DNA from: Gemmatimonadaceae bacterium
GTDB lineage: Bacteria > Gemmatimonadota > Gemmatimonadetes > Gemmatimonadales > Gemmatimonadaceae
NCBI GenBank assembly: GCA_019637355.1
Contig: JAHBVT010000001.1
Coordinates: 2,945,192 to 3,009,191 of the forward strand
Length of the DNA: 64,000 nt
Direction: 5' to 3'
Under the pieces are notes generated by a model. The model worked only from the letters and a program-made list of their open reading frames with translations, did not search any database and was not told the origin of the DNA. A program made the position numbers and the translations under genes. Position 1 is the stretch's first letter, and each line of letters opens with the position of its first letter. Below, piece by piece: positions 16,580-35,389 of the stretch.

Positions 16580-16701
16580 TTCTCCACATAAATTGTGGGT
16601 TGTGAACGTCTGAGTGCAGTGCTTATATAAGCCTATAATTCACAGCGAGTTACGTGTGCAGTTAATACGCCACATCGCTTGGACTGTCGTCTTTATCCAC
16701 A
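16580..16701. promoter_or_regulatory. A/T-rich promoter region with DnaA-box-like sites
   Basis: This is much richer in A/T than its surroundings. It contains TTCTCCACA (16580-16588, one mismatch to the DnaA box), a perfect TTATCCACA (16693-16701, inside the following gene), a TTGTGA/TATATA pair with an 18-base spacer (16600-16605, 16624-16629) and a perfect TATAAT (16634-16639). It is most simply the promoter of the nucleoside importer operon; DnaA binding is possible. Confidence 0.5.
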
Positions 16702-19881: not shown

Positions 19882-20819
19882 CCGAGGCGCTGCTGGCCTT
19901 CTGGGACGGCGCCTTCGGCTCGGCTTTCGCCTTCTGGTCGGCGACGCTCGTGCGCGCCACGCCGTTGCTCCTCGTGGGCGTGGCACTGGCGCTGGCCTTT
20001 CGCGCGGGCGTGCTCAACATCGGCGCCGAGGGACAGCTGGTCGTCGGTGCGGTCGCGGCGGCCGTGGTCGCGCTCGCGGGCGCGTCGCTGCCAAGCGTGC
20101 TGCTTATCCCGGCAATGGTGCTGGCCGGCGCGCTCGGCGGGGCGGTGTGGGCGGGCATCGCCGCGTGGCTGCGGCAGCGCTATGGCGTGCTCGAAGTGAT
20201 CAGCACGATCATGCTGAATTTCGTCGCGGCGGCGCTCATCAGTTGGGTGGTGCGCGGCCCGTTGCAGGAGCCGACCAAGGTGTACCCGATGTCGCTGACG
20301 TTCGCGGAGGCGGCACGCTGGCCGTTCCTGCTGAGCGGACAGCGCCTGCACCTTGGATTCTTGCTCGGCGTGCTCGTTGCGATGCTCGCCTGGTACGTGC
20401 TGACGCACGCAGCGGCTGGGTTTCGGGTGCGGGCGGCGGGGGCGGGTCCACGCGCCGCCGAGAGCGCCGGGGGCATCGGCGTGCGGGGCCTCACCTCGCG
20501 CGTGTTCGTCCTCAGCGGCGCGATCGCTGGTGTGGCGGGTGCCAGCGAGGTCGGTGGCGTGACGTGGGCGCTGTACGAAGGCATCTCGCCGGGATACGGC
20601 TATACCGGCATCGCCGTCGCCTTGCTCGCGCGCCTCGATCCGCGGTGGGTGGTGGTGACGGCGGTGTTTTTCGGCGCGCTCGAGGCTGGCGGCGCGTCGA
20701 TGCAACGCATCGCCGGAGTGCCGGCCGTCTCCGTCCAGATCGTCACGGCCTGTACGCTGCTGGGCGTGCTGGCCCTCGGCCGCTGGCAGCGCACGCGTCG
20801 GTCCGCGGCGAGCGCGTGA
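19878..20819 (+). CDS. nucleoside ABC importer permease 1
   Basis: A 313-residue inner-membrane permease of the BPD_transp_2 type (NupP/YufP-like), with about nine hydrophobic segments and the family stretch LAFRAGVLNIGAEGQL near residue 35-50. It pairs with the following permease to form the heterodimeric channel. GTG 19878 overlaps the ATPase stop (GTGA); its stop overlaps the ATG of permease 2 by one base. Confidence 0.93.
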   Translation: MTEALLAFWDGAFGSAFAFWSATLVRATPLLLVGVALALAFRAGVLNIGAEGQLVVGAVAAAVVALAGASLPSVLLIPAMVLAGALGGAVWAGIAAWLRQRYGVLEVISTIMLNFVAAALISWVVRGPLQEPTKVYPMSLTFAEAARWPFLLSGQRLHLGFLLGVLVAMLAWYVLTHAAAGFRVRAAGAGPRAAESAGGIGVRGLTSRVFVLSGAIAGVAGASEVGGVTWALYEGISPGYGYTGIAVALLARLDPRWVVVTAVFFGALEAGGASMQRIAGVPAVSVQIVTACTLLGVLALGRWQRTRRSAASA

Positions 20820-21736
20820 TGCTCGAACTCGCGCTCGTGCCCTTTCTCGAAGCGGCGGTGCGCACCGCCACGCCGCTGGCCTTCGCCGCGCTCGGCGAGC
20901 TCGTCGTGGAGCGTTCCGGCACCATCAATTTGGGGTTGGAGGGAATGATCATCGCCGGTTGCGTCGGCGGAGCGGCGGCGGCGACGTGGGGTGGGGCAGG
21001 CGCCGGCTATCTCGGCGCCGCGGCCGCCGGGTTGGCGATGGCGCTGCTCTTCGCGCTGTTCGTGGTGCGCCTCGGCACCGACCAGATCATCACCGGCACG
21101 GCGCTGACGGTGCTCGGGCTTGGCGTTTCGGGGACCTGGTTCCACCTCGCACCTGCGTCGCTCGGAGCAGGCACGGCATTTCCGACGACCGGTGCCGTTG
21201 CGCTCCCGCTGCTGTCGGAGCTTCCGCTCGTCGGGCGCGTGCTCTTCACGCAGGCCGTGCCGACCTACGCACTGCTCGTCGCCGTGCCCGTGCTCGCGTG
21301 GTGGATGGCGCGTACACACGCGGGCTTGGCGTTGCGGGCAGTGGGCGAGTCGCCTGAGGCCACCGCAGCGGCGGGGCTCGCGCCGTCGCGGATTCGCACC
21401 GTGGCTATCTGCTTTGGCGGCGTGATGGGCGGACTGTGCGGCGGCACGCTTGTGCTTGCGCAGGTGGGCGCGTTCAACGAGGGAATGAGCGCCGGCCGTG
21501 GCTTCATCGCGATCGCGATCGTCGTGCTGGGGCGTTGGACGCCGTGGGGAACGGCCGGCGCCGCGCTGGTGTTCGGTGCGGCCTTCGCGCTGCAGTATCT
21601 CGTGCAGTCCCTCGGGCTCGACCTCCCGTATCAGCTGTTTCTCGCGACGCCCTACGTGCTCACGCTGCTCTTGCTGGCGTCGCTGCGCGGGCGGGCGCGG
21701 GCCCCCGCGCATCTCGGACGCGCCGACGCAGCCTAG
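20819..21736 (+). CDS. nucleoside ABC importer permease 2
   Basis: 305 residues, NupQ/YufQ-like permease with the diagnostic ERSGTINLGLEGMI segment near residue 30-45, LGTDQIITGTAL and a C-terminal helix bundle. Its TAG stop lies within CTAG, which it shares with the stop of the gene on the opposite strand. This completes the importer operon. Confidence 0.93.
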   Translation: MLELALVPFLEAAVRTATPLAFAALGELVVERSGTINLGLEGMIIAGCVGGAAAATWGGAGAGYLGAAAAGLAMALLFALFVVRLGTDQIITGTALTVLGLGVSGTWFHLAPASLGAGTAFPTTGAVALPLLSELPLVGRVLFTQAVPTYALLVAVPVLAWWMARTHAGLALRAVGESPEATAAAGLAPSRIRTVAICFGGVMGGLCGGTLVLAQVGAFNEGMSAGRGFIAIAIVVLGRWTPWGTAGAALVFGAAFALQYLVQSLGLDLPYQLFLATPYVLTLLLLASLRGRARAPAHLGRADAA

Positions 21737-21963
21737 CGCGACGGCGGAAGGTAGGGGCCGCCGAGGTCCCAGTGCCACGCCTCGCGGCGCTCTCCGCTCC
21801 GCGGGTCCTTGAGCGGGTGGTACTGCAGGCGTTCCGCGGGAATTCCGACGCGCGCGCCCCACGCGAGGAGTCGCTCGCGATCCGTCGACACCAAGTGCGC
21901 CATCGGACGGCCTTTCCAGACGTGCCGGTGCAGCCACAGGCCGCCGTCCATCGCGTGGATCAT
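21733..21963 (-). CDS. small DUF4031-like protein
   Basis: At least 76 residues, with segments (WKGRPMAHLVSTD, LLAWGARVGIPAERLQYHPL, HWDLGGPYLPP) that recall DUF4031 proteins of unknown function. The start is unresolved: ATG 21963 is the first good start, but third-position GC bias continues upstream to about 22040 with no ATG, GTG or TTG until 22179, which would overlap the pilin gene by 118 bases. The last four bases overlap the importer permease stop on the other strand. Confidence 0.6.
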   Translation of the reverse strand: MIHAMDGGLWLHRHVWKGRPMAHLVSTDRERLLAWGARVGIPAERLQYHPLKDPRSGERREAWHWDLGGPYLPPSR

Positions 21964-22061
21964 CCCGTCGCGGCGCTTGGCGAACTCGGTCCACTCCGTG
22001 AGCAGGGCGCGGGGGTCCTTGGGCGGCGGAATCTGCGGGGCACGAAACGGCCCGGCGCCGC

Positions 22062-22481
22062 TCAGCGACAGCTGACGACTCCCTCGGGATCTCCGGGATA
22101 CGGCGGGGACGGCACGGTGCCCGAGTAGACCGCGCAGGTCAGCGGAAACGACTGCGGGTGGGTCACCTTGGCCGACCATCCCATGTTGTTGGCCGAAATG
22201 ATCGTGAGCACCACGCCTTTGCTCGTGCTGTACTTCAGCAGGGAGGCGTCGTTCGTGTACGCGGAGTGCTCGTGGAAATAGGCTTCCTGGGCGCTCGCCA
22301 GATTGCGGAGGTCGGCGCGCAGCGCGGCGGCGTTTGCCTTCCCCTTCGTGTTCTGGAACTTCGGGACGGCGATGGCCGCGATGATCCCGATGATCACCAC
22401 GACAATCAGTAGCTCGATGAGCGTGAAGCCGCGTCGAAGTCGTGCTGCGGTCAAGTGAATCTCGAGAGAGGGGAATGGCAC
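22062..22481 (-). CDS. type IV pilin or type II pseudopilin
   Basis: A prepilin with the type III signal: basic leader (ARLRRG) cut before FTLIELLIVVVIIGII, with Glu at +5, then a globular head with two Cys (LTCAVY and VVSC). 139 residues if GTG 22481 is used; TTG 22454 would give a more typical nine-residue leader. It could be a major PilA-like pilin or a minor pilin of a fibre or secretion system. No other pilus genes are nearby. Confidence 0.88.
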   Translation of the reverse strand: MPFPSLEIHLTAARLRRGFTLIELLIVVVIIGIIAAIAVPKFQNTKGKANAAALRADLRNLASAQEAYFHEHSAYTNDASLLKYSTSKGVVLTIISANNMGWSAKVTHPQSFPLTCAVYSGTVPSPPYPGDPEGVVSCR

Positions 22482-22506
22482 ATTCGAGCGAACGTCTTAG
22501 TGACGC

Positions 22507-22528
22507 CCGTCACGCTCGAACGTGACGG
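22507..22528. repeat. 8-bp inverted repeat upstream of the pilin gene
   Basis: CCGTCACG (22507-22514) and CGTGACGG (22521-22528) flank CTCGAA, about 25 bases before the pilin start. It is positioned like an operator. The 22529-22718 interval otherwise shows no gene, only a possible weak promoter for the pilin. Confidence 0.4.
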
Positions 22529-22718
22529 CCACACCATAATCGATAGGTATCGGCGAATATTGGCAAGGCCCGCGCCGCTACGGGGGGTGTTTGCGCAACC
22601 TGTTCAGCTTCAACGCTTTGGGGGTCACCGGGCGGCATCGAGCCGGTAGCGCCTCGCACCGGAGATGTCGACGATTGCCGCATCCTGCAACGGCGTCGCG
22701 GTACGCGACACCGCTCTC

Positions 22719-25694
22719 TCACGCCTTGGCGACCAACCAATTCTCGCCGGCGCCGATGTCCACGACCAGCGGCACCCGGAGCTTGACCGCTGCCGTCATC
22801 TCGCGATTGACCAACGCGCGCAGGCGGGGCTCTTCCTCCGGCGGGCACTCGAACACCAGCTCGTCGTGCACCTGCAGCAGCATCCGCGATGCAAGTCGCT
22901 CCGCCTCGAGAGCCGCCTGGATGCGAATCATCGCCACCTTGATGAGATCGGCCGCGGATCCTTGGATCGGGGAGTTCTGCGCGAGCCGCTCGCCGAAGGC
23001 GCGGGTGTTGAAGTTGCGGTCCTTGATCTCCGGGATGTAGCGCCGCCGTTTGAACAGCGTCTCGACGTACCCGCGCTCCCGGGCATCGGCCACCGAGCCA
23101 TCGAGCCACTGGCGCACGCCGGCGAAGCGCTCGAAGTACGTCTCGATGAAGGCCTTGGCCTCGGCGTGTTCGATCTTGAGCTGCCGCGAGAGCGCGTGGG
23201 CGCCCTGGCCGTAGATCGTGGCGAAGTTGATGGTCTTGGCGCGCGAGCGCATCTCGGAGGTCACGGCCTCGAGGGGCACGCCGAAGATGACACTCGCCGT
23301 CTGGCGGTGGATGTCGCCGCCGGCCTCAAACGCCGCGACGAACGCCGGGTCGCCGCTCAGGTGCGCGAGCAGGCGCAGTTCAATCTGGGAGTAGTCAGCC
23401 GCCAGCAGCATCCACCCCGCGCGCGGAATGAAGCCGCGCCGGATGTCCTTTCCAAGCTCGCGGCGAATCGGGATGTTCTGGAGATTCGGGTCGTGGGAGG
23501 CGAGGCGGCCGGTGCTCGCGACCGTCTGTGCATACGACGTGTGCAGGCGCCCGGTGCGCGGGTTCACCAAGCCCGGCAGCGTGTCGAGGTACGTGCTCTC
23601 GAGCTTGGCCAGCTCGCGGTGCTCCATCAGGAGCTGCGGCAGCACGTGCCCTTCGTCGGCGAGCTCTTGTAGCACACTCGCGTCGGTACTCGGCCCCGTC
23701 GCCGTCTTCTTCTTGATGGGCAGACCGAGCTTCTCGAAGAGAATCGTCCGCAGCTGCGGGTTGCTGTTGACGTTGAACGTCTCGCCCGCCTCGGCGTGGA
23801 TCTGCTTCTCGAGCTCAAGGCGCGCCGTCTCAAAGCGCGTCTTGAGCGAGCGGAACCACGGAACATCGATGGTGATGCCGGTCCACTCCATCTCGGCCAG
23901 CACGTCAACGAGCGGGAGCTCCACCTCCCGGAGCAACGCCATCGCGTCCTGCTCGGCGAGCCGCGGCAGGAACAGCTCGCGCAAGCGCAGGGCGACGTCG
24001 CTGTCGGCGCAGGAGTAGTCGCGCGCCGCGACGATCGGTACCTCGTCGTACGGCATCTGCTGCTTGCCCTTGCCGCAGAGCTCGTCGTAGCCGGTCATCG
24101 CGACGCCGAGAAACTCCACGGCGAGCGCATCGATGGCGTGCGAACGACGGCTCGGGTCGAGTACGTAGCTGGCGAGCATCGAGTCGAAGTCCACGCCGCG
24201 CAGCGTGATGCCAGCGCGTCGCAGCACCAGCAGGTCGTACTTCACGTTGTGCGCGGTCTTCTTGACCGACGCGTCCTCGAGCAGCGCGCGCAACGGCGCC
24301 ATCGCGTCGCTGTCCAGGGACGGGAGGTTCACGACCGGCTGCGGCCCCTCGGCAAGCAGGCGCGCGGCGATGCTGGCCGGGGCCGCGCCGGCCTTCGCCT
24401 TCACCGGTGCCGGCGCGTCACCGAGCGCGAGGCCGCCCTGCGCAGAGCCCGGCGCACGGTGCGCGAAGGGCAGGTACCAGGCCTTGCCGGGCGCCGTGCC
24501 GACGGAGATCGCCACGAGGTTCGCGCGCATCGGGGTGATGATCGGCGGCGCGCCATCGTCGAGCACCGTCTCGGTGTCCACCGCGATGACACCTGCGGCG
24601 CGTGCTTCTGCGATTACCGCGGCGACGAGCTCCGGCGTGTCCGCGACGCGGTAATCCAGCGCTACCGGATCCGGCGTTCCCGGCACGGCGGCACGGGCGT
24701 TGCGCGCGCTCACCATATGGCCTTCGACGTCCGCCGCCGACTCGGCGGAGCGCTCGAGCGCGGCGCTCGGCGCGGCGCCCGCAGCCTCGGCGTTGACCGC
24801 CGCCGCGCGGGCCGCGCTATTGAACTCCAGTTCCACGAAGAGGTCGCGCAGCGCGGCCCAGTCCGGAGTGTCGAGCGTGAGGCTCGTGAGATCCAGCGTG
24901 ACGGCGAGGTCGCGCTGCAGCGTCACGAGCTGCTTGGAGAGCCGCGCCTCGGCTTCGTGGTTCTTGAGGGCGTTGCGTGCGCGCGTCGGTTCGATCTCCT
25001 CCACGTGCGCGAGCATATTCTCGACCGTGCCCCACTTCTCGATCAGGGCGAGCGCGCCTTTGTCGCCGATGCCCTTCACGCCGGGAACGTTGTCGGCAGT
25101 GTCGCCGACGAGCGCCAGGTAGTCGATCACGCGCTCTGCGGGGACGCCGAGTCGCTCGTGCGCGTTCTCGACGCCATACCACTTCTCGGTGGTACGTCCT
25201 GGCGGACCGTGCCAGGGGTTCAGCACCCACACGCCTGGCTCGACGAGCTGTAGCAAGTCCTTGTCGCCGGAGACGACACAGACCTCGAGGCCCGCCGCCA
25301 CGCCCTGCGGCGCGAGCGTGGCGATGACGTCGTCCGCCTCGAAGCCGTCGAGTTCGAGCGTCGGGATCCGATAGGCTTCGAGCAGTTGCTGCACGCGCTC
25401 GACGCCGGTGTCGAAGTCCTGCTGCTCTTCATCCGGCAGCGCGACGCGGTTGGCCTTGTAGGCCTCAAGCAGTTCCTCGCGCCCGGAGGAACCGGCGTCG
25501 CTGACCCAGCCGAGGTAGTCGGGTTTGTGCTTCTCGATCAATCGACGCAGGAACTCGCTGACGCCCTTGGCCATCCCGGTGTTTTCGCCGCGGGCGTTGC
25601 GCAGCGGCGCGCCGCCGCCCAGCGCGTGGAACGAGCGGTAGATCAGCGCGTAGCCGTCGATGAGATAGAGTCGCGGGCGTCCGGGAGTACTCAT
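22719..25694 (-). CDS. polA: DNA polymerase I
   Basis: 991-residue repair and Okazaki-fragment-maturation polymerase. Residues 1 to about 290 form the 5' nuclease (LYLIDGYALIYRSFHAL, VVSGDKDLLQL, helix-hairpin GVKGIGDKGA). About 375-600 is a 3'-5' exonuclease with intact metal ligands (AVDTET, NVKYDLL, YSCADSD), so proofreading is probably active. The C-terminal polymerase has motif A AADYSQIELRLLAHLS, motif B RSRAKTINFATIYGQG and motif C QVHDELVFE. An insert rich in Ala separates the nuclease from the exonuclease. Confidence 0.97.
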   Translation of the reverse strand: MSTPGRPRLYLIDGYALIYRSFHALGGGAPLRNARGENTGMAKGVSEFLRRLIEKHKPDYLGWVSDAGSSGREELLEAYKANRVALPDEEQQDFDTGVERVQQLLEAYRIPTLELDGFEADDVIATLAPQGVAAGLEVCVVSGDKDLLQLVEPGVWVLNPWHGPPGRTTEKWYGVENAHERLGVPAERVIDYLALVGDTADNVPGVKGIGDKGALALIEKWGTVENMLAHVEEIEPTRARNALKNHEAEARLSKQLVTLQRDLAVTLDLTSLTLDTPDWAALRDLFVELEFNSAARAAAVNAEAAGAAPSAALERSAESAADVEGHMVSARNARAAVPGTPDPVALDYRVADTPELVAAVIAEARAAGVIAVDTETVLDDGAPPIITPMRANLVAISVGTAPGKAWYLPFAHRAPGSAQGGLALGDAPAPVKAKAGAAPASIAARLLAEGPQPVVNLPSLDSDAMAPLRALLEDASVKKTAHNVKYDLLVLRRAGITLRGVDFDSMLASYVLDPSRRSHAIDALAVEFLGVAMTGYDELCGKGKQQMPYDEVPIVAARDYSCADSDVALRLRELFLPRLAEQDAMALLREVELPLVDVLAEMEWTGITIDVPWFRSLKTRFETARLELEKQIHAEAGETFNVNSNPQLRTILFEKLGLPIKKKTATGPSTDASVLQELADEGHVLPQLLMEHRELAKLESTYLDTLPGLVNPRTGRLHTSYAQTVASTGRLASHDPNLQNIPIRRELGKDIRRGFIPRAGWMLLAADYSQIELRLLAHLSGDPAFVAAFEAGGDIHRQTASVIFGVPLEAVTSEMRSRAKTINFATIYGQGAHALSRQLKIEHAEAKAFIETYFERFAGVRQWLDGSVADARERGYVETLFKRRRYIPEIKDRNFNTRAFGERLAQNSPIQGSAADLIKVAMIRIQAALEAERLASRMLLQVHDELVFECPPEEEPRLRALVNREMTAAVKLRVPLVVDIGAGENWLVAKA

Positions 25695-25704
25695 ACGCCC
25701 AAAA

Positions 25705-26310
25705 CTAGCGCAGGCCGGGCAGGGTCGCGGCGACGGCGACGGCGAGTGTGATGCGCAGGTTGTCGTCGCCAGGGCGGGCGGGCCACTCCGCCGCTGCCGC
25801 GACGACGCCAAGTGCCGCCGCGACCCCCGGCGTGACCGCGAGGAGCCAGCGCGCGCCGAGTGCGGTGGCCAGCGCGCAGGCCACCGCACCGGCGATCGTC
25901 TTGCCGGTCGCCGGTCGGCGTCGCAGCGCGCGGACCGCGCGTCCCGCGAGCGCGGCCGCGGCATCCCCGACGGCGGCGGCCCAGAGTGCCGCGATCGCTG
26001 CGCGTTCCGGGGCCAGCCACGCGACTGACGCCATTCCGAGTGCAAGCCAGGTGGCACCGGTGAGCGCGTGCTCCTCGCGCGCGCGGAGCAGTGGTCCGAC
26101 CGCCGCGAGAAAGCGGGATTGCACGGATGGGGCGTTTCGCCGCAGGAGCTCAACAATCACGGCGATGGCGACGGCGGCGGACAGTGCGGCTCGTACCTGC
26201 TCCGCGGTCAGCGCTCCGTAGGCCCACGCGATCGGCAACGCCGCCGTGGCCGCGTGCAGTGCCTTGCGCGCCACTTCCGCGCGGAGCGTGAGCGCGGCCG
26301 GCGCGCTCAC
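25705..26310 (-). CDS. diacylglycerol/polyprenol kinase-like membrane protein
   Basis: 201 residues, very hydrophobic (about six membrane segments), resembling the CTP-dependent dolichol/phytol kinase family (SEC59/VTE5). Visible landmarks are EVARKALHAATAALPI near the N-terminus (RK-x-x-H pattern) and AAAVGDAAAALAGR with the conserved Asp in a membrane loop. A lipid or polyprenol phosphorylation role is inferred. It overlaps the GWxTD gene by four bases and precedes polA after ten. Confidence 0.65.
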   Translation of the reverse strand: MSAPAALTLRAEVARKALHAATAALPIAWAYGALTAEQVRAALSAAVAIAVIVELLRRNAPSVQSRFLAAVGPLLRAREEHALTGATWLALGMASVAWLAPERAAIAALWAAAVGDAAAALAGRAVRALRRRPATGKTIAGAVACALATALGARWLLAVTPGVAAALGVVAAAAEWPARPGDDNLRITLAVAVAATLPGLR

Positions 26311-27680
26311 CGGAGCTGGCGGCGGAGCTCCACCTCGAAGCGCGCGTCGCTCGTCTGCGTCAGCCGCCAGCGCCCTGCGCCCGTCTGGTCAAAGAACTGC
26401 AGCTGCAGGGCGCGATCGCGATACTCCCACAGCTGCTGCCGCGCGCGGCCGAAGTCCGTGACCGTGGGTTCGAAGATCTGGTCCGGTTCGCCGAGCACGA
26501 TGAAGACCTTCCCGCGGTCGGACATCCATCCGGCGACGCCGTCCTCGCGGAACCGGGCGTTGGCGCGCAGCAGCCGCCCGAAGTACGCGCGGAGGTCTTC
26601 GTGCACGGGCGTCGTGGGGATGGAATCCGTCTCGCGCATAAACGCCAGCCACGCCGCGGGGCGCTGCTCCTCTGGCGCTTCGCGCAGGGCCTGCAGGCGT
26701 GCGGGGCGCGCGAAGTACCGCAGGAACTGCAGCATATCCTCGAAGCGCGCAATCGGCAGGTCGTCACCGAAGCCCACGTACACGAAGGTGCTCGCGGTGT
26801 CGCGACCGCCGCTGCCGATGAACGACAGCTGCGAGACGCCGATGCCGAGGCGCGTCACCGGCACCTGGATCACGCCCGTGGCGATGCCCTCGTGCGGACG
26901 GAGCCCGGCGAGCTCGGTCCACATCACCCGCCCACCCTCGGTCCGGGCCACGAGTTCGAGCAGCGTGTCGCCGGGAGACAGGCTTTCGAGATACAGAGGT
27001 AGCACGGAATCCTGGCCCAGAGACGCCATGGCCCGCGGGCGCGCAAGGATGAACGGCAGGGAATCGCGCGTCTCGCGCGCGATCACCTTGTTGACCGGCA
27101 CCGGCGTCGAGAGCGCGCGCTGCTGGAAGTCGGGCACCTGCAACGTCAGCTGCTCGGTCACGCCGCGCTGGCTGCTGACGTCGCGCAGGACCAGCGTCAG
27201 GCGATACTCCCCGGGCCGCAGGTCAAAGATTTCCTGGAAGACCACGCTCTCGTCGCCTCGTTCCGTCTCGCGGAAGGAGCCGACGACGACCGTCTCCGTG
27301 GTCTCGGTCGTGAAGGCCAGTTGCCCGTCGCGCTCGACCGTGATGCCCACGCTGTAGTTGGCGCGGAAGCGGTTGTCCGTCTCCCGGTTGAAGCGCAGCG
27401 CGTTGGGCGAGAAGCCCACGACGAGCGCGACGTGCGTCGTGTCCGGGCTCGCGGCCGGCACGTAGGCTACGCGGCCCACGACCGGAAACGGCACGCCGCG
27501 CGCGATGAGTCCCATCTGCCGGTAGATCGGCGTAGGGTCGAAGGAAATGACGCGCTGGTCGCGCTGGACGCCCGGGGCCGAGCTTCCCGCGGCACCGGAC
27601 GCGCCGCCGCAGGCTGCAATCACGAGGCAGAGGCCGAGCGCCGAGAGGCGTCGCACGGAGGCGGGGTAGTGAGAGGTCAT
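26307..27680 (-). CDS. GWxTD domain-containing lipoprotein
   Basis: 457 residues with a lipoprotein signal (lipobox IAAC near residue 24), a central beta-rich region with Asp/Arg-rich strands, and a C-terminal GWxTD domain whose motif here reads GWMSDRGKVFIVLGEPD. The domain is frequent in Acidobacteria, Gemmatimonadota and relatives and has no established function. A TAGATT hexamer on the minus strand at 27707-27702 could be its -10 element with a leader of about 15 bases. Confidence 0.88.
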   Translation of the reverse strand: MTSHYPASVRRLSALGLCLVIAACGGASGAAGSSAPGVQRDQRVISFDPTPIYRQMGLIARGVPFPVVGRVAYVPAASPDTTHVALVVGFSPNALRFNRETDNRFRANYSVGITVERDGQLAFTTETTETVVVGSFRETERGDESVVFQEIFDLRPGEYRLTLVLRDVSSQRGVTEQLTLQVPDFQQRALSTPVPVNKVIARETRDSLPFILARPRAMASLGQDSVLPLYLESLSPGDTLLELVARTEGGRVMWTELAGLRPHEGIATGVIQVPVTRLGIGVSQLSFIGSGGRDTASTFVYVGFGDDLPIARFEDMLQFLRYFARPARLQALREAPEEQRPAAWLAFMRETDSIPTTPVHEDLRAYFGRLLRANARFREDGVAGWMSDRGKVFIVLGEPDQIFEPTVTDFGRARQQLWEYRDRALQLQFFDQTGAGRWRLTQTSDARFEVELRRQLR

Positions 27681-27756
27681 CGCAGGGCGTGGTGTTCCGA
27701 TAATCTACACCGCGCCCCCGCGCCAAGATCGTGGCATCGGTGCCCGCGGGGCCGTC

Positions 27757-27785
27757 TTGCACGGACCTGCGCGGATACGTAGCTT
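27757..27785 (+). promoter_or_regulatory. leaderless promoter of the Ser/Thr kinase gene
   Basis: TTGCAC (27757-27762), exactly 17 bases, then TAGCTT (27780-27785), which ends seven bases before GTG 27793. The predicted transcription start coincides with the start codon. No Shine-Dalgarno is present. Confidence 0.75.
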
Positions 27786-27792
27786 CGGCGCC

Positions 27793-28701
27793 GTGACACG
27801 CGATGCCCTCGTCGGATCGACATTGGCCGGGTACACCCTCCTCGACCGAGTCGGCGAAGGGGGGACTGCGACCGTCTACCGCGCCACGCACCCGGAACAC
27901 GGAACGGTGGCCTTCAAAGTGCTGCGCGAGAAGCTCCGCCAGGACCGCACCGCCGTGGCGCGCTTCACGCGCGAGGCGGGCTTCGGCACGCGGGTGCAGC
28001 ACCCGAACGTGATCCGCACGATTCAGACGGGCGAGGACGGCGGCATCCCGTTCCTCGTGATCGAGTGGGCGGCGGGCGAGTTGCTGGAGTCGTACGCCAA
28101 GCGGCACGCGCCGTTCCCGCCGGACGAGGTCGCGTCGGTCATCAGCCAGATCGCCGGGGCCGTCTATGCCGCGCACGTGGCCGGCATCGTGCATCGCGAC
28201 CTCAAGCCGGATAACGTGATGTACGATCACGACAGCCGGACGGTCAAATTGCTCGATTTCGGCATCGCGACGGCGACCGACGCGACACCTGACCAGCGCC
28301 TGACGCGCGCCGGCTTCTTCGTCGGCACGCTGATGTACGTGGCACCCGAAGCGCTCTCCGGCGAGATCGTCTCGCCCGCTGCGGACCAATACTCGCTGGC
28401 CACGATGGCGTACCTGTTCCTCACGGGCACGCTGCCGTACACGGCGCGCAGCCCTCGGGATATGTTCACTCAGCTGCTCTCGCAGCCACCGGTCCCGCTG
28501 AACAAGGCCAAGCCCGACATCGTCTTCCGGCCCGAGGTCGAGGCCGTCGTGATGAAGGGGCTCGCCAAGCTGCCGAGCGACCGCTATGCGGATGTCGTCG
28601 CCTTTGCCGACGCGCTGGCCGAGGTGCTCACGGATCCGTTCCCCGCGGCGAACGCCGGCGGCAGCCTGCTGTCGAAGATGAAGGGTCTCTTCGGGCGCTG
28701 A
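27793..28701 (+). CDS. eukaryotic-type Ser/Thr protein kinase
   Basis: A 302-residue soluble kinase consisting almost only of the catalytic domain: Gly-rich loop GEGGTATVY, Lys in VAFKVLREK, HRDLKPDN, DFGIAT (metal-binding Asp), an APE-type motif (VAPEAL) and the helical C-lobe. Unlike PknB types it has no membrane segment or PASTA repeats. The short tail ends MKGLFGR. The start follows from the promoter seven bases upstream. It converges with the histidine-kinase gene after five bases. Confidence 0.93.
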   Translation: MTRDALVGSTLAGYTLLDRVGEGGTATVYRATHPEHGTVAFKVLREKLRQDRTAVARFTREAGFGTRVQHPNVIRTIQTGEDGGIPFLVIEWAAGELLESYAKRHAPFPPDEVASVISQIAGAVYAAHVAGIVHRDLKPDNVMYDHDSRTVKLLDFGIATATDATPDQRLTRAGFFVGTLMYVAPEALSGEIVSPAADQYSLATMAYLFLTGTLPYTARSPRDMFTQLLSQPPVPLNKAKPDIVFRPEVEAVVMKGLAKLPSDRYADVVAFADALAEVLTDPFPAANAGGSLLSKMKGLFGR

Positions 28702-28706
28702 GTCGG

Positions 28707-29621
28707 TCAGCCCTGCGCCCGCGGCGCGGGGTCCACCGGCAGCCAACACGTGAACGTGCTGCCGCGGCCCATCACGCTCTCGACCGTGATGTCGCCCTCG
28801 AGCAACCGCGCCAAGCGTCGCGTGATGGTGAGGCCGAGCCCGGTGCCGCGGCGCACGGAATCCGAGCGCGACCCCGGATCCACCTGTTCGAACTCGTCGA
28901 AGATGCGCTGCTGGTCCTTCTCGGCGATGCCGATTCCGCTGTCCGTCACCTGGAGCGCGACCCACGACCCGCCGGCGGCGAGCAGCGGGCGCTGACGCAC
29001 GGCGCGCTCTTCGAGGAGGCGCGCCGGATCGGCTACCAGCGTCGCGCGGACGGTGATGCTGCCGGCGGGCGTGTACTTCACCGCGTTGCCCAGCAGGTTG
29101 ATGAGGACCTGCCGCAGGTGCATCGGGTCCGTGCTGAGCCGCGGCAATGTCGCCGGCACGTGGATGGAGAGCGTGAGACCTTTCTCCGTGATGAGCGGCT
29201 CGACCTCGCTGGCGACGTCAATCACGAACGCGCGCAGGGAGAGCGGTTCGCGCTGCACCTCGAGGCGGCCGGCCGAAAGCTTGGCGAGGTCGAGAATCTG
29301 GTCCACCAGCGCCTGCAGGTGCTCAGCAGAGGCCTGGATGCGCTCGACTGGGCCGACCATCCGCGGCGCGAGCTCGCCGTATGAGCCGTCGCGGAGCAGG
29401 TCGACGTAGCCGACGATGGCGGCCAGCGGGGTGCGCAGCTCGTGCGAGACGTTGGCCAGGAACTCGCTCTTGGCGCGGTTGGCGCGGGCCAACTCGAAGG
29501 ACAGATGCTCGAGCTCGGCGCTGCGCTCGCGCAGCCGCCGCCGCCGCGCGCGCTCGCTGACGAGCACGACGCCGAGGAGGACGGCGGCAGCCGCCACTGC
29601 AAGCCACATCAGCATCGCCAC
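28707..29621 (-). CDS. sensor-less membrane histidine kinase
   Basis: About 304 residues: one N-terminal membrane helix (MLMWLAVAAAAVLLGVVLV), a short coiled coil, the HisKA dimerisation domain with phospho-acceptor His in NVSHELRTPLAAIVGY, then HATPase with N-box LINLLGNAVKYTP, DSGIGI, a GTGLGL G-box and ESVMGRGSTF. There is no periplasmic or PAS sensor domain and no adjacent response regulator, so the partner and signal are unknown. The start may be GTG 29621 or ATG 29615. It is divergent from pyrE. Confidence 0.9.
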   Translation of the reverse strand: MAMLMWLAVAAAAVLLGVVLVSERARRRRLRERSAELEHLSFELARANRAKSEFLANVSHELRTPLAAIVGYVDLLRDGSYGELAPRMVGPVERIQASAEHLQALVDQILDLAKLSAGRLEVQREPLSLRAFVIDVASEVEPLITEKGLTLSIHVPATLPRLSTDPMHLRQVLINLLGNAVKYTPAGSITVRATLVADPARLLEERAVRQRPLLAAGGSWVALQVTDSGIGIAEKDQQRIFDEFEQVDPGSRSDSVRRGTGLGLTITRRLARLLEGDITVESVMGRGSTFTCWLPVDPAPRAQG

Positions 29622-29622
29622 A

Positions 29623-29651
29623 TTGACCGCTACGCCCTCCGAGGGTAGCCT
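29623..29651 (+). promoter_or_regulatory. leaderless promoter of pyrE
   Basis: TTGACC (29623-29628), a 17-base spacer and TAGCCT (29646-29651), then six bases to the pyrE ATG. This is the best-matching promoter in the window. Its -35 abuts the start codon of the divergent histidine-kinase gene. Confidence 0.8.
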
Positions 29652-29657
29652 CCCCGA

Positions 29658-30209
29658 ATGGATCCCCGTACCCGACTCCTCGACCTCCTCGCGACGCGCA
29701 GCGCGCGCCGCGGCTCCTTCACCCTCGCCTCCGGCCGGCAGTCCGACTTGTACGTCGATTGCCGCCCGACAACGATGCACCCGGAGGGCCTCGCCGCCAT
29801 CGGTCCGCTCGGCCTGCACGCCATCGGCGAGCGCGGATGGAAGCCCGACTCCGTCGGCGGGCTGACGCTCGGCGCCGACCCCGTGAGCTACGCCATCGCG
29901 TACGCCAGCCAACTCGCGGGCATTCCCGTCCGCGCGTTCACGGTGCGGAAGGAAGCCAAAACGCACGGCACGGGCAAGGTGATCGAGGGCGCCTTTGAGT
30001 CGGGTGACCGCGTCGTCGTCGTCGAGGACGTGATCACCACCGGCGGCTCCGCGCTGCGCGCAGTCGAGGCCATTCGTGCCGCCGGCGGCCACGTCGTCGG
30101 CGTGCTCGCGGTCGTCGACCGCAGCGAAGGCGGGCGCGAAGCGATCGAGGCCGCCGGGCTCGAGGTCGCGTCCCTGGTGACGGCGGCCGAGATCGTCGCG
30201 CGGATGTAG
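29658..30209 (+). CDS. pyrE: orotate phosphoribosyltransferase
   Basis: 183 residues; converts orotate and PRPP to OMP in pyrimidine synthesis. The PRPP-binding loop VVVVEDVITTGGSA and the N-terminal GSFTLASGRQSDLYVD region (orotate contact) are intact, as is the flexible loop KEAKTHGTG. It stands alone, away from other pyr genes; upp at 40.6 kb provides uracil salvage. It converges with the AraC-type gene after nine bases. Confidence 0.96.
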   Translation: MDPRTRLLDLLATRSARRGSFTLASGRQSDLYVDCRPTTMHPEGLAAIGPLGLHAIGERGWKPDSVGGLTLGADPVSYAIAYASQLAGIPVRAFTVRKEAKTHGTGKVIEGAFESGDRVVVVEDVITTGGSALRAVEAIRAAGGHVVGVLAVVDRSEGGREAIEAAGLEVASLVTAAEIVARM

Positions 30210-31257: not shown

Positions 31258-31637
31258 GTGGTCCTGTCGGACGATCGCGTCGCGGTTTCGGCTGCGCCGA
31301 GGAAAGTCCGGGCTCCCGGGACACGCTGCCAGGTAACGCCTGGGCACGCGCGCGCTTCGGCGTACCGCGTGACGGACAGTGCAACAGAAAGCAAACCGCC
31401 TTCGGGACACCGGAGGTAAGGGTGAAATGGTGGGGTAAGAGCCCACCGCGTCGTCGGTAACGGCGACGGCACGGCAAACCCCAGCGGGAGCAAGGCCAAA
31501 TAGGCGGCGAGCAGCAGTCCTCTGCGATCAAGACGCCGCGGGTTGGCCGCTAGAGCATCCGTGCGAACGGACGCCGAGAGGAATGATCGTCCGGGGCGGC
31601 AACGTCCCGACAGAACCCGGCTTACAGACAGGACCCA
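31258..31637 (+). ncRNA. rnpB: RNase P RNA, bacterial type A
   Basis: The catalytic RNA that trims tRNA 5' ends. Universal core blocks are present in order: GAGGAAAGTCCGGGCTCC near 31300, ACAGAAAGCAAACCGCC near 31383, GGTAAGGGTGAAATGGTGGG near 31415, AGAGCCCACCGCG and, near the 3' end, GACAGAACCCGGCTTACAGA. The ends pair as P1: GGTCCTGTC (31260-31268) with GACAGGACC (31627-31635). Boundaries are estimated from that helix and the upstream -10. The interval 31128-31257 has no gene. Confidence 0.96.
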
Positions 31638-31706
31638 CGCTGGACCGGCGGGGGCGGTGCCATCGGGCACTCGCCCCCGTCGTGCGTCTTGGGGTATCGT
31701 ACGCGA

Positions 31707-32581: not shown

Positions 32582-33688
32582 TCAGTCGACGAGGCGCAGC
32601 GGCATCAGCAGGCAGAGGTACTTCGCCGAGTCCGACCAGCCCTCGGGCTCGATCGTCGACGCGCGCTCCGGCGCGCGGAAGGTCATCCGCACCTCGTCGG
32701 TCGGCATATAGCGCAGGATCTCGAGTAGGTACGCCGCGTTGAAGCCGATGTCGAGCGGATCGCCCTCAAAGCGGATCGGCAGCTCGTCCTGGGCCTCGCC
32801 GAGGTCGGGGGTGCTCACGGAGAACTTGAGCATCCCGGCATTGAACGAGAGGCGAATGCGGTGGGTCTGGTCGGACGCGACGACGCTCATTCGCCGCAGG
32901 GCGCTGGTGAGCGCCGCACGGTCGACGATGGCGTACTTGTCGTTGTCCTTGGGAATGACCTGTTCGTAGCCGGGATACGGGCCCTCGATGAGGCGCGTGT
33001 ACACCGACGTGAACGGCGAGCGGAAGCCAAGGTGGTTCTCGCCCTGCGCGACCTCGAGCTCTTCCTCTGCCGGGAAGAGGCGGCGGATCTGCTCAAGCGC
33101 CTTTGGCGGAATGATGAGATCCGCCTTCTGCCCCGCCTTCACCGGCACTTCCATCTTCGCCAAGCGATGCCCGTTGGTGGCTACCATCCGCATCGCGTCG
33201 CTACGCAGCTCCCAGAGAACGCCATTGAGGATCGGGCGGCTTTCCTCGGTGCTGGCGGCAAAGGCGGTGTGCCCGATGAGCTTCTGCAACTCGCCCGACG
33301 GTACGCGCACCGCCTTCTCGAACTGCACGGCGGGGAAGCTCGGGAACTCCGACTTCGGCAGGCCCAGCAGCTTGAACTTCGAACGGCCGCATTCGAGCGT
33401 GATGCGCTGGTCGCCGGTGGCCGAGATGCGCACGGGCGAGGGCGGCAGCTCGCGCGCGATCTCGCTGAGCTTGCGTGCGGGAATCGTGATCGCGCCCATC
33501 GCCTCGACGTCGGCGGTCACCTCCGTCGAGACCGCGATGTCGAGGTCGGTGCCGGAAATCCGGATGCCCTTGTCCGTGGTCTGCACCAGGAGATTGGCAA
33601 GCACCGGCAGCGTCGTCTTGTTGGGCACCGCCGGCGTGACGGCGGCGAGCCCTTCCTGGAGCTTCTCGCGTGTGATCGTGAAGCGCAT
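32582..33688 (-). CDS. dnaN: DNA polymerase III beta subunit (sliding clamp)
   Basis: A 368-residue processivity clamp, three repeated domains, normal length. Landmarks are MRFTITREKLQEGLAAV at the N-terminus, FPAVQFEKAV, the HRLAKMEVPV segment, and the C-terminal CLLMPLRLVD, the usual clamp ending. It lies downstream of dnaA in the same orientation, with the candidate oriC in the 227 bases between. recF does not follow, unlike in many bacteria. Confidence 0.97.
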   Translation of the reverse strand: MRFTITREKLQEGLAAVTPAVPNKTTLPVLANLLVQTTDKGIRISGTDLDIAVSTEVTADVEAMGAITIPARKLSEIARELPPSPVRISATGDQRITLECGRSKFKLLGLPKSEFPSFPAVQFEKAVRVPSGELQKLIGHTAFAASTEESRPILNGVLWELRSDAMRMVATNGHRLAKMEVPVKAGQKADLIIPPKALEQIRRLFPAEEELEVAQGENHLGFRSPFTSVYTRLIEGPYPGYEQVIPKDNDKYAIVDRAALTSALRRMSVVASDQTHRIRLSFNAGMLKFSVSTPDLGEAQDELPIRFEGDPLDIGFNAAYLLEILRYMPTDEVRMTFRAPERASTIEPEGWSDSAKYLCLLMPLRLVD

Positions 33689-33735
33689 CTGCGGCAGGCG
33701 GAGGAATGTGGAACGGCGCGAAAGCCTTCTGTTGC

Positions 33736-33915
33736 TATCTACTGAATTATCAAGCAGTAGAAGTAGTAGAAAGCTGTGGATTGTAGACGAACGGCGAAAG
33801 TGCTTGTCGTACCGAATCTTCGCCGCGGGCCTTCACGTGCATTGTGCGTGGACGGGGTGTGGACGCCGGGGGGAAACTCGAGCGACCCCAGCCCGCCGTG
33901 TTGATGGTGTGGACT
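33736..33915. other. oriC: candidate chromosomal replication origin (oriC) with DnaA-trios
   Basis: On the minus strand the region reads, after the dnaA stop: several GTCCACAC-type DnaA-box-like sites (near 33908, 33858 and 33850), a box CAATCCACA (33783-33775), a GC dinucleotide, then trinucleotides that on the plus strand read CAG TAG AAG TAG TAG AAA (33755-33772), followed by A/T-rich DNA (33736-33754). This matches the basal origin unwinding element (DnaA box, GC, DnaA-trios 3'-(G/A)AT-5') described in B. subtilis, in the same dnaA-dnaN interval. Confidence 0.75.
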
Positions 33916-35316
33916 CTATGCGGAATGCCGGACGGTTTCCCGCACGCGGTCCACACGCCCCCTGAACTCGGCGCTCTCCTTCATCGTCTCGGCGACGCGC
34001 TCCAAGGAGTGGATGACCGTCGAGTGGTCGCGGCCCCCGAAGGCCTGGCCGATCTCGACGAGCTGCAGTCCGAGGATCTCGCGGGCGAGATACATCGCGA
34101 CCTGACGGGGAATCGTGAGGGTCTTGGTGCGTGTCTTCGACTGGAGACCTTCGACCGTGACCCCCCATTCGGCGGCCACGCGCTGCTGGATGACGCCCAT
34201 CCGATCCTGGCGTTCCGGGCGGGCGGAGGAGCCGGACTCCTGGCTGCGCAGCTTGTCGCGCAGGGCTTCGCGGGCGAGGTCCACGGTGACGACGCGGTGC
34301 TTGAGCGACGCGTACGCCAGCAGCTTGATGATCGAGCCCTCGAGCTCGCGGACGTTGGACTGCACGTGGTCCGCGATGAAGTGCAGGACGTCGTCGGGAA
34401 TCGTGTGTTCGAGATGGTCCATCTGGGCCTTGCGGCGCAGGATGGCGATGCGGTGCTCGAGGTCCGGCTGCCCGATGTCGGCGACCATTCCCCAGGCGAA
34501 ACGCGACGCGAGGCGCGCCTCGAGCTTCGAAATCTCGGACGGCGGCCGGTCGGAGGTGAGGACGATCTGCCGGCCCGCTTCGTAGAGGGCGTTGAACGTG
34601 TGGAAGAACTCTTCCTGCGTGGAGTTCTTGCCGCCGATGAAATGCACGTCGTCCACCAAGAAGAGGTCCGTCTCGCGATAGCGGCGGCGGAAGTCGTGCA
34701 TCGCACCCTTGCCGATGGACGTGATGACGTCGTTGGTGAACTGCTCGGTGGTGATGTAGGTGACGCGGGTCAGCGGGTTCTTCCGGACGATCTCCTGGGC
34801 GATGGCCTGCATCAGGTGGGTCTTGCCGAGTCCCGTGGGCCCGTAGAAGAAGAGCGGGTTGTAGGTCTTCCCGGGGGCCTGGGCGACGGCCATCGCGGCG
34901 GCAGCGGCGAGGTCGTTGGACTTACCGATGACGAAGGTATCGAAGGTATAGCGGTCGTTGAGCGAGGACAGCGTAACGTTGTTTGGCTGTCTTTCTGGCT
35001 CGATGGTGCGCTGTTCCTGTCCCTTTTGTGGGACGAACAAGTCCATCTGGCTTCGTTGAAGGCGCTCCTGCTGAACGCGCAGGGCAATCTTGACGGGCTG
35101 CCCGACGGCAACCGGTCCGAAGGACTCGAGCAGCGCCGCGTGGCGCTTCTCGTTCCACTCAACCGAGAACTGGTCTGGGGCGTTGAGCGTCAGCTGCTCG
35201 CCGGAGAACTCAGCGGCCTGGAGGGGCGCGAGCCAGGTCTCAACTATGTGATCCGAGAGCTCGGTCCGGGCACGATCAAGCAGGCGGGACCAAACGTCAG
35301 CGGCCGAGAGGGACAT
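33916..35316 (-). CDS. dnaA: chromosomal replication initiator DnaA
   Basis: 466 residues. Domain I at 1-85 (VWSRLLDRARTELSDHIVETW), a short linker, then the AAA+ domain with Walker A GPTGLGKTH at 159-167, Walker B LFLVDDVHFI at about 218-227 and sensor TSDRPP. The C-terminal DNA-binding domain has the DnaA signature in QAFGGRDHSTVIHSLERV. Its promoter contains a perfect DnaA box, suggesting autoregulation. The 3' end abuts the oriC candidate. Confidence 0.98.
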   Translation of the reverse strand: MSLSAADVWSRLLDRARTELSDHIVETWLAPLQAAEFSGEQLTLNAPDQFSVEWNEKRHAALLESFGPVAVGQPVKIALRVQQERLQRSQMDLFVPQKGQEQRTIEPERQPNNVTLSSLNDRYTFDTFVIGKSNDLAAAAAMAVAQAPGKTYNPLFFYGPTGLGKTHLMQAIAQEIVRKNPLTRVTYITTEQFTNDVITSIGKGAMHDFRRRYRETDLFLVDDVHFIGGKNSTQEEFFHTFNALYEAGRQIVLTSDRPPSEISKLEARLASRFAWGMVADIGQPDLEHRIAILRRKAQMDHLEHTIPDDVLHFIADHVQSNVRELEGSIIKLLAYASLKHRVVTVDLAREALRDKLRSQESGSSARPERQDRMGVIQQRVAAEWGVTVEGLQSKTRTKTLTIPRQVAMYLAREILGLQLVEIGQAFGGRDHSTVIHSLERVAETMKESAEFRGRVDRVRETVRHSA

Positions 35317-35360
35317 CCGGGATGGGCGCGTGCGAAATGTGGAAATCGGCGGGGAGCGCG

Positions 35361-35389
35361 AACCTACCCCCCGCCTGTGGATAAGTCAA
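35361..35389 (-). promoter_or_regulatory. dnaA promoter with DnaA box in its spacer
   Basis: On the minus strand TTGACT (35389-35384), a 17-base spacer and TAGGTT (35366-35361). The perfect DnaA box TTATCCACA (35384-35376) starts at the last base of the -35 and fills half of the spacer, so DnaA binding would exclude RNA polymerase. The leader to ATG 35316 is about 38 bases. Confidence 0.8.

Follow-up and report, generated by a model that had tools for sequence, protein, structure and literature searches.

The interval between dnaA and dnaN in this Gemmatimonadaceae genome holds, with a probability of about 0.9 as judged from its sequence, the site at which the chromosome origin is unwound. 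This reading is supported by the conservation of the element across the phylum, by the retention of the trio-binding residues in DnaA, and by a terminus located about half a chromosome away. These lines of evidence agree with the original prediction that the element follows the order and orientation of the Bacillus subtilis basal unwinding system (BUS). We infer that it is a genuine element of this kind and that DnaA binding, unwinding, and initiation take place in the interval.

The window, i.e., the whole 64,000-nucleotide stretch that was analyzed, covers positions 2,945,192–3,009,191 of a 3,136,119-base contig from a 3.15 Mb genome. The closest relatives of its DnaA mostly carry the label Gemmatimonadetes. 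The gene order dnaN-dnaA / rpmH-rnpA-yidC-mnmE forms a neighborhood that is usual for origins. The dnaA-dnaN interval spans 191–240 bp in the 33 nearest aligned relatives and is longer in the three most distant ones. A class A RNase P RNA is encoded near the proposed origin, approximately 0.9 kb past the dnaN stop (window 31259–31640, plus strand). A full-text search of the open-access literature returned no description of an oriC from Gemmatimonadota.

Read on the minus strand from the dnaA stop, the interval contains scattered GTCCACA cores, a pair of DnaA-boxes, GC, DnaA-trios, and A/T-rich DNA, in this order, before dnaN begins (Table 1). The succession of box, GC, trios, and A/T-rich DNA predicted around 33755–33772 is exact in letters and coordinates. 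The plus strand at 33755–33772 reads CAG TAG AAG TAG TAG AAA, and the array as a whole comprises seven NAN trios, 3'-AAA-GAT-GAT-GAA-GAT-GAC-GAA-5', with CTACTACTTCTACT as its unique core and GATAATTCAGTAGATAG directly beyond it on the minus-strand reading. The GC spacer (33773–33774) separates CAATCCACA from the first trio by 2 bp. This proximal box indeed differs from TTATCCACA at two bases, as predicted; the prediction had, however, overlooked the conserved upstream box TCGTCTACA as well as the perfect box upstream of dnaA. TCGTCTACA and CAATCCACA have the same orientation and overlap by two bases, so that the pair spans 33775–33790. With two and three mismatches, the trio-adjacent boxes of the present species are weak; in relatives, the upstream box reads TCGTCCACA or TTTTCCACT and is better conserved than the proximal one. 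The A+T content reaches 68% in the 25-base bin 33740–33764, compared with 31% across the window. Of the outlying box-like sites, GAGTCCACA shares one base with the dnaA stop.

Table 1. Features of the proposed origin region and of other sites discussed in the text (window coordinates unless the contig is named).
Feature	Position	Strand	Remarks
dnaN, DNA polymerase III beta clamp	32582–33688	-	passes curated NCBIfam cut-off
dnaA-dnaN interval, proposed oriC unwinding region	33689–33915	-	227 bp; sequence and alignment
A/T-rich stretch beyond trios	33727–33751	.	base composition
DnaA-trio array TTT-CTA-CTA-CTT-CTA-CTG-CTT	33752–33772	-	trios proper on plus strand
Trio-proximal DnaA-box CAATCCACA	33775–33783	-	2 mismatches to TTATCCACA
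Upstream DnaA-box TCGTCTACA of tandem pair	33782–33790	-	3 mismatches to TTATCCACA
Box-like GCGTCCACA, GTCCACA core	33858–33866	-	3 mismatches; position not conserved
Box-like GAGTCCACA, GTCCACA core	33908–33916	-	3 mismatches; position not conserved
dnaA, initiator, 466 aa	33916–35316	-	passes curated NCBIfam cut-off
ATTTCCACA, between dnaA and rpmH	35338–35346	-	accompanies perfect box
Perfect DnaA-box TTATCCACA, between dnaA and rpmH	35376–35384	-	upstream of dnaA
Box pair TTCTCCACA and TTATCCACA, 113 bp apart	16580–16701		A/T-rich DNA beside parA-parB-bactofilin
Palindromic dif-like site (L301)	contig C1 1,479,038–1,479,059		after dapF-like gene; at skew maximum and gene-strand switch

The motif stands alone in the genome. 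CTACTACTNCTACT has a single exact copy genome-wide, with one further copy carrying a mismatch elsewhere. When 984 kb were scanned on both strands for a box with no more than two mismatches and, within the following 16 bp, three or more NTN triplets, the dnaA-dnaN site scored 16 and the next best site 6. The single exact copy and this difference in score indicate that the motif is not a product of chance.

The genomes that supplied intervals for comparison range from members of the same genus to a second class within the phylum. When 36 intervals were aligned, strong conservation was confined to one block, the box pair with the CTA repeats (CTACTACT), and the remainder drifted. A rule-based score was applied to 102 distinct dnaA-dnaN intervals, their reverse complements, and 2040 dinucleotide shuffles; values of at least 8 were reached by 57 of the 102 forward sequences and by none of the reverse complements or the 2040 shuffles. 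A leave-one-out profile, which tolerates interrupted trio arrays, placed 94 of the 102 intervals above the 99.9% shuffle level (reverse complement, 4/102); since the profile was trained on relatives, this figure measures shared descent under constraint and not independent discovery. Thus, the conservation in related genomes on which the prediction depended is borne out across the phylum. The profile consensus, TTnTCCACA-n-TTCCACA-nCCT-CTA-CTA-CTA-CTA-CT, places the upstream box 12 bp from the first trio, which falls inside the published peak of 10–13 bp for box-to-trio distances (PMC8287927). Four loci from the second class (L233, L234, L235, and L238) have perfect TTATCCACA boxes and a different trio array, mostly CTA-ATA-ATA-ATA (3'-GAT-TAT-TAT-TAT-5').

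Natural variation within the arrays was examined at the middle base of the trios. Each array was anchored by two proximal trios, both intact, and by a box-like core upstream of them, and the replacements of the middle base in trios 3–5 were counted. Parsimony on a dnaA and dnaN tree reconstructs 31 losses of the middle A on the trio strand; C is the replacement in 20 of them, G in 7, and T in 4. C is more frequent than base composition would predict (p = 0.0002) and, less strongly, more frequent than in a control for sequence context built from the genome (p = 0.005, or p = 0.036 in a strict subset). At the outer positions of the trio (first and third), 29 of 45 changes are transitions, compared with 7 of 31 at the middle position (Fisher p = 0.0004). 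C is the best-tolerated substitute both in vitro and in B. subtilis, as it retains the amine read by N187 (PMC10721633). Since the middle A is mostly replaced by C, which keeps the amine, natural variation follows the amine-recognition rule. The test was devised after the alignment had been viewed, and its result is therefore suggestive rather than confirmatory. On these sequences, the balance tips slightly toward a phylum-wide reading of the exocyclic amine by DnaA, in which the trio code would be 3'-N(A/C)N-5' and current origin finders would undercount trios. An exception to the amine rule is the clade of L002 and L108–L111, in all of which trio 3 is disrupted (CAA/CAG, with T as its middle base on the trio strand) and the trios beside it are intact. 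L002 (JACMLT010000251.1) is on a contig labeled Nitrospiraceae; its dnaA-dnaN locus groups inside Gemmatimonadota, with a DnaA of 63% identity, which points to a mislabeled or mixed bin.

The initiator itself is consistent with trio recognition. Among its residues, I190 and I193 are important in DnaA. Aligned to Bacillus DnaA (B. subtilis numbering), the window DnaA keeps both of these along with E183, N187, R202, and E228, and has G in place of N196. In the cryo-EM structure of the BUS complex, the bases that are captured are contacted by E183, N187, R202, and E228, and the third base, which is left uncaptured, by N196 (PMC10721633). Among the phylum members that could be scored, N187 is retained in 47 of 52 and E228 in 81 of 81, although the pattern may have misread some of the exceptions. 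In the proposed mechanism, DnaA would bind the tandem boxes at 33775–33790 on double-stranded DNA, and an ATP-DnaA oligomer would extend from them along the plus strand, with each trio (3'-GAT-5' and variants) entering a pocket between adjacent DnaA subunits. The oligomer on the trios would then open the A/T-rich DNA beyond. Loading of the replicative helicase would follow and is probably of the DciA kind, since a DciA gene is present in the genome.

Skew was sampled in 40 stretches of 20 kb and in 184 kb of near-contiguous sequence with one 191-base gap. Both the sampled skew and the coding strand climb from dnaA via the contig end to approximately 1.45 Mb and reverse at 1.50 Mb, and strand bias is very high on either side of this 1.45–1.50 Mb switch. 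Gemmatimonadota termini have been described with such a very high strand bias flanking the switch (PMC11237797). A palindromic dif-like site lies here (Table 1); its pattern has a sole match, at 1,479,038 with three mismatches, and the control has none. The gene before it was named from a reading of the sequence and is presumably dapF-like. The same pattern did not find the site in three other genomes (G128, G004, and G125), and the dif assignment therefore depends on its coincidence with the skew maximum and the strand switch. The distances from the dif-like site to dnaA along the two arms are 1.50 and 1.64 Mb; the terminus is thus roughly opposite the dnaA-dnaN interval, about half a chromosome away.

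At a finer scale, the skew is less simple. The cumulative GC-skew minimum of the source genome lies near 2.925 Mb, on the dnaN side of dnaA and approximately 54 kb away from it. The minimum is displaced likewise, to the syntenic place, in G128, a collinear genome of the same genus with about 80% DNA identity; in two further genomes of the genus, it lies at −26 to −51 kb on a flat floor (G004) and at −31 kb (G027). The displaced-skew zone covers 2,925,000–2,975,000 of the contig (window about −20,000 to 30,000). From the minimum to dnaA, third-position skew is close to neutral on both strands. In G073, from another genus of the family, the minimum is approximately 7 kb from the dnaA start, and synteny is lost beyond about 30–40 kb on the dnaN side. 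Three distant genomes (G198, G165, and G124) show a noisy skew around dnaA without a clear minimum. At the scale of the chromosome, skew climbs from around dnaA to 1.45 Mb and falls beyond that point, but at fine scale its minimum is displaced by approximately 54 kb. The original prediction, which had named a skew minimum elsewhere as grounds for rejection, does not come out of this comparison cleanly, although the minimum of G073 is near dnaA. Consequently, the sequence predicts the origin and does not fix it for the lineage, as had been claimed.

The displaced minimum could mean that the chromosome starts near 2.925 Mb and that the motif between dnaA and dnaN survives as a relic or serves DnaA as a secondary or regulatory site. 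Apart from the minimum itself, found in the source genome and at the syntenic place in G128, the change in the third-position skews of both strands at that point would fit such a start. However, the box-plus-trio motif is absent from the 184 kb except at dnaA, no TTNTCCACA site occurs between 2.86 and 2.96 Mb, and the skew from the minimum to dnaA is intermediate, below the strength of the right arm. Moreover, the trio block is retained in the same genomes, and the minimum of G073 is close to dnaA. A start near 2.925 Mb is accordingly improbable. The displaced minimum is taken here to mark a skew boundary that may stem from an old inversion, from gene gain, or from a real but weak second starting zone, and it is insufficient evidence for moving the origin.

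Two further explanations were weighed against an unwinding site in the dnaA-dnaN interval. It is highly improbable that an origin or second origin lies in the A/T-rich DNA adjoining parAB. Its box pair comprises two of the genome's rare near-perfect boxes, with the exact 113 bp spacing retained in G128, G004, and G027, but the homologous place in G073 has no such pair, and the second box falls at the start of a BMP-type lipoprotein gene, inside the signal peptide predicted for it. This pair, which matches no Rfam family, was not accepted as an origin because it lacks a trio array and the skew does not change there. That the trio block is instead a promoter or leader element of dnaN, resembling trios by accident, is barely credible. 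Although it lies roughly 60–120 bp upstream of dnaN in most genomes, its conserved letters are just the boxes and CTA repeats in a fixed order and strand, the stretch from the block to dnaN is not conserved, and the variation of the middle base obeys the DnaA amine rule.

The preferred reading, an unwinding site between dnaA and dnaN, has a close counterpart in the BUS of B. subtilis oriC (incC). The two share the dnaA-dnaN location, tandem co-oriented boxes, a short GC spacer, trios, A/T-rich DNA, the strand, and a DnaA with trio-contact residues. Yet, the boxes described here are weaker than TTATCCACA and overlap by 2 bp in the present genus, few strong boxes occur elsewhere in the interval, and the likely loader, based on the DciA gene, is DciA rather than DnaB/DnaD/DnaI. 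The published BUS search rule looks for a box with at most two mismatches within 16 bp of at least three NAN trios (Pelliciari et al. 2021, PMC8287927). CAATCCACA and its seven NAN trios fall under this rule, which would nevertheless cut short the arrays of many relatives, where one of trios 3–5 has C as its middle base in place of A. In 2021, DnaA-trios had been predicted in 1755 of 2070 bacterial origins (85%) and tested in Helicobacter pylori, Synechococcus, and Deinococcus (PMC8287927), and trios are annotated routinely by Ori-Finder 2022 (PMC10225481); the main text of the former study contains no occurrence of the word Gemmatimonadota. The presence of the module far from Firmicutes is therefore not new, contrary to the original prediction, and the origin proposed here is well supported but mostly expected, given how widespread the box-plus-trio signal is in bacteria.

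For a large and mostly uncultured phylum, these results provide an origin predicted from sequence, together with its conserved unwinding module. In the present genus, an origin called from skew would lie approximately 50 kb from the motif. Finally, evolution offers a hundred natural variants of the trio array against which the base-capture model derived from the B. subtilis structure can be tested.
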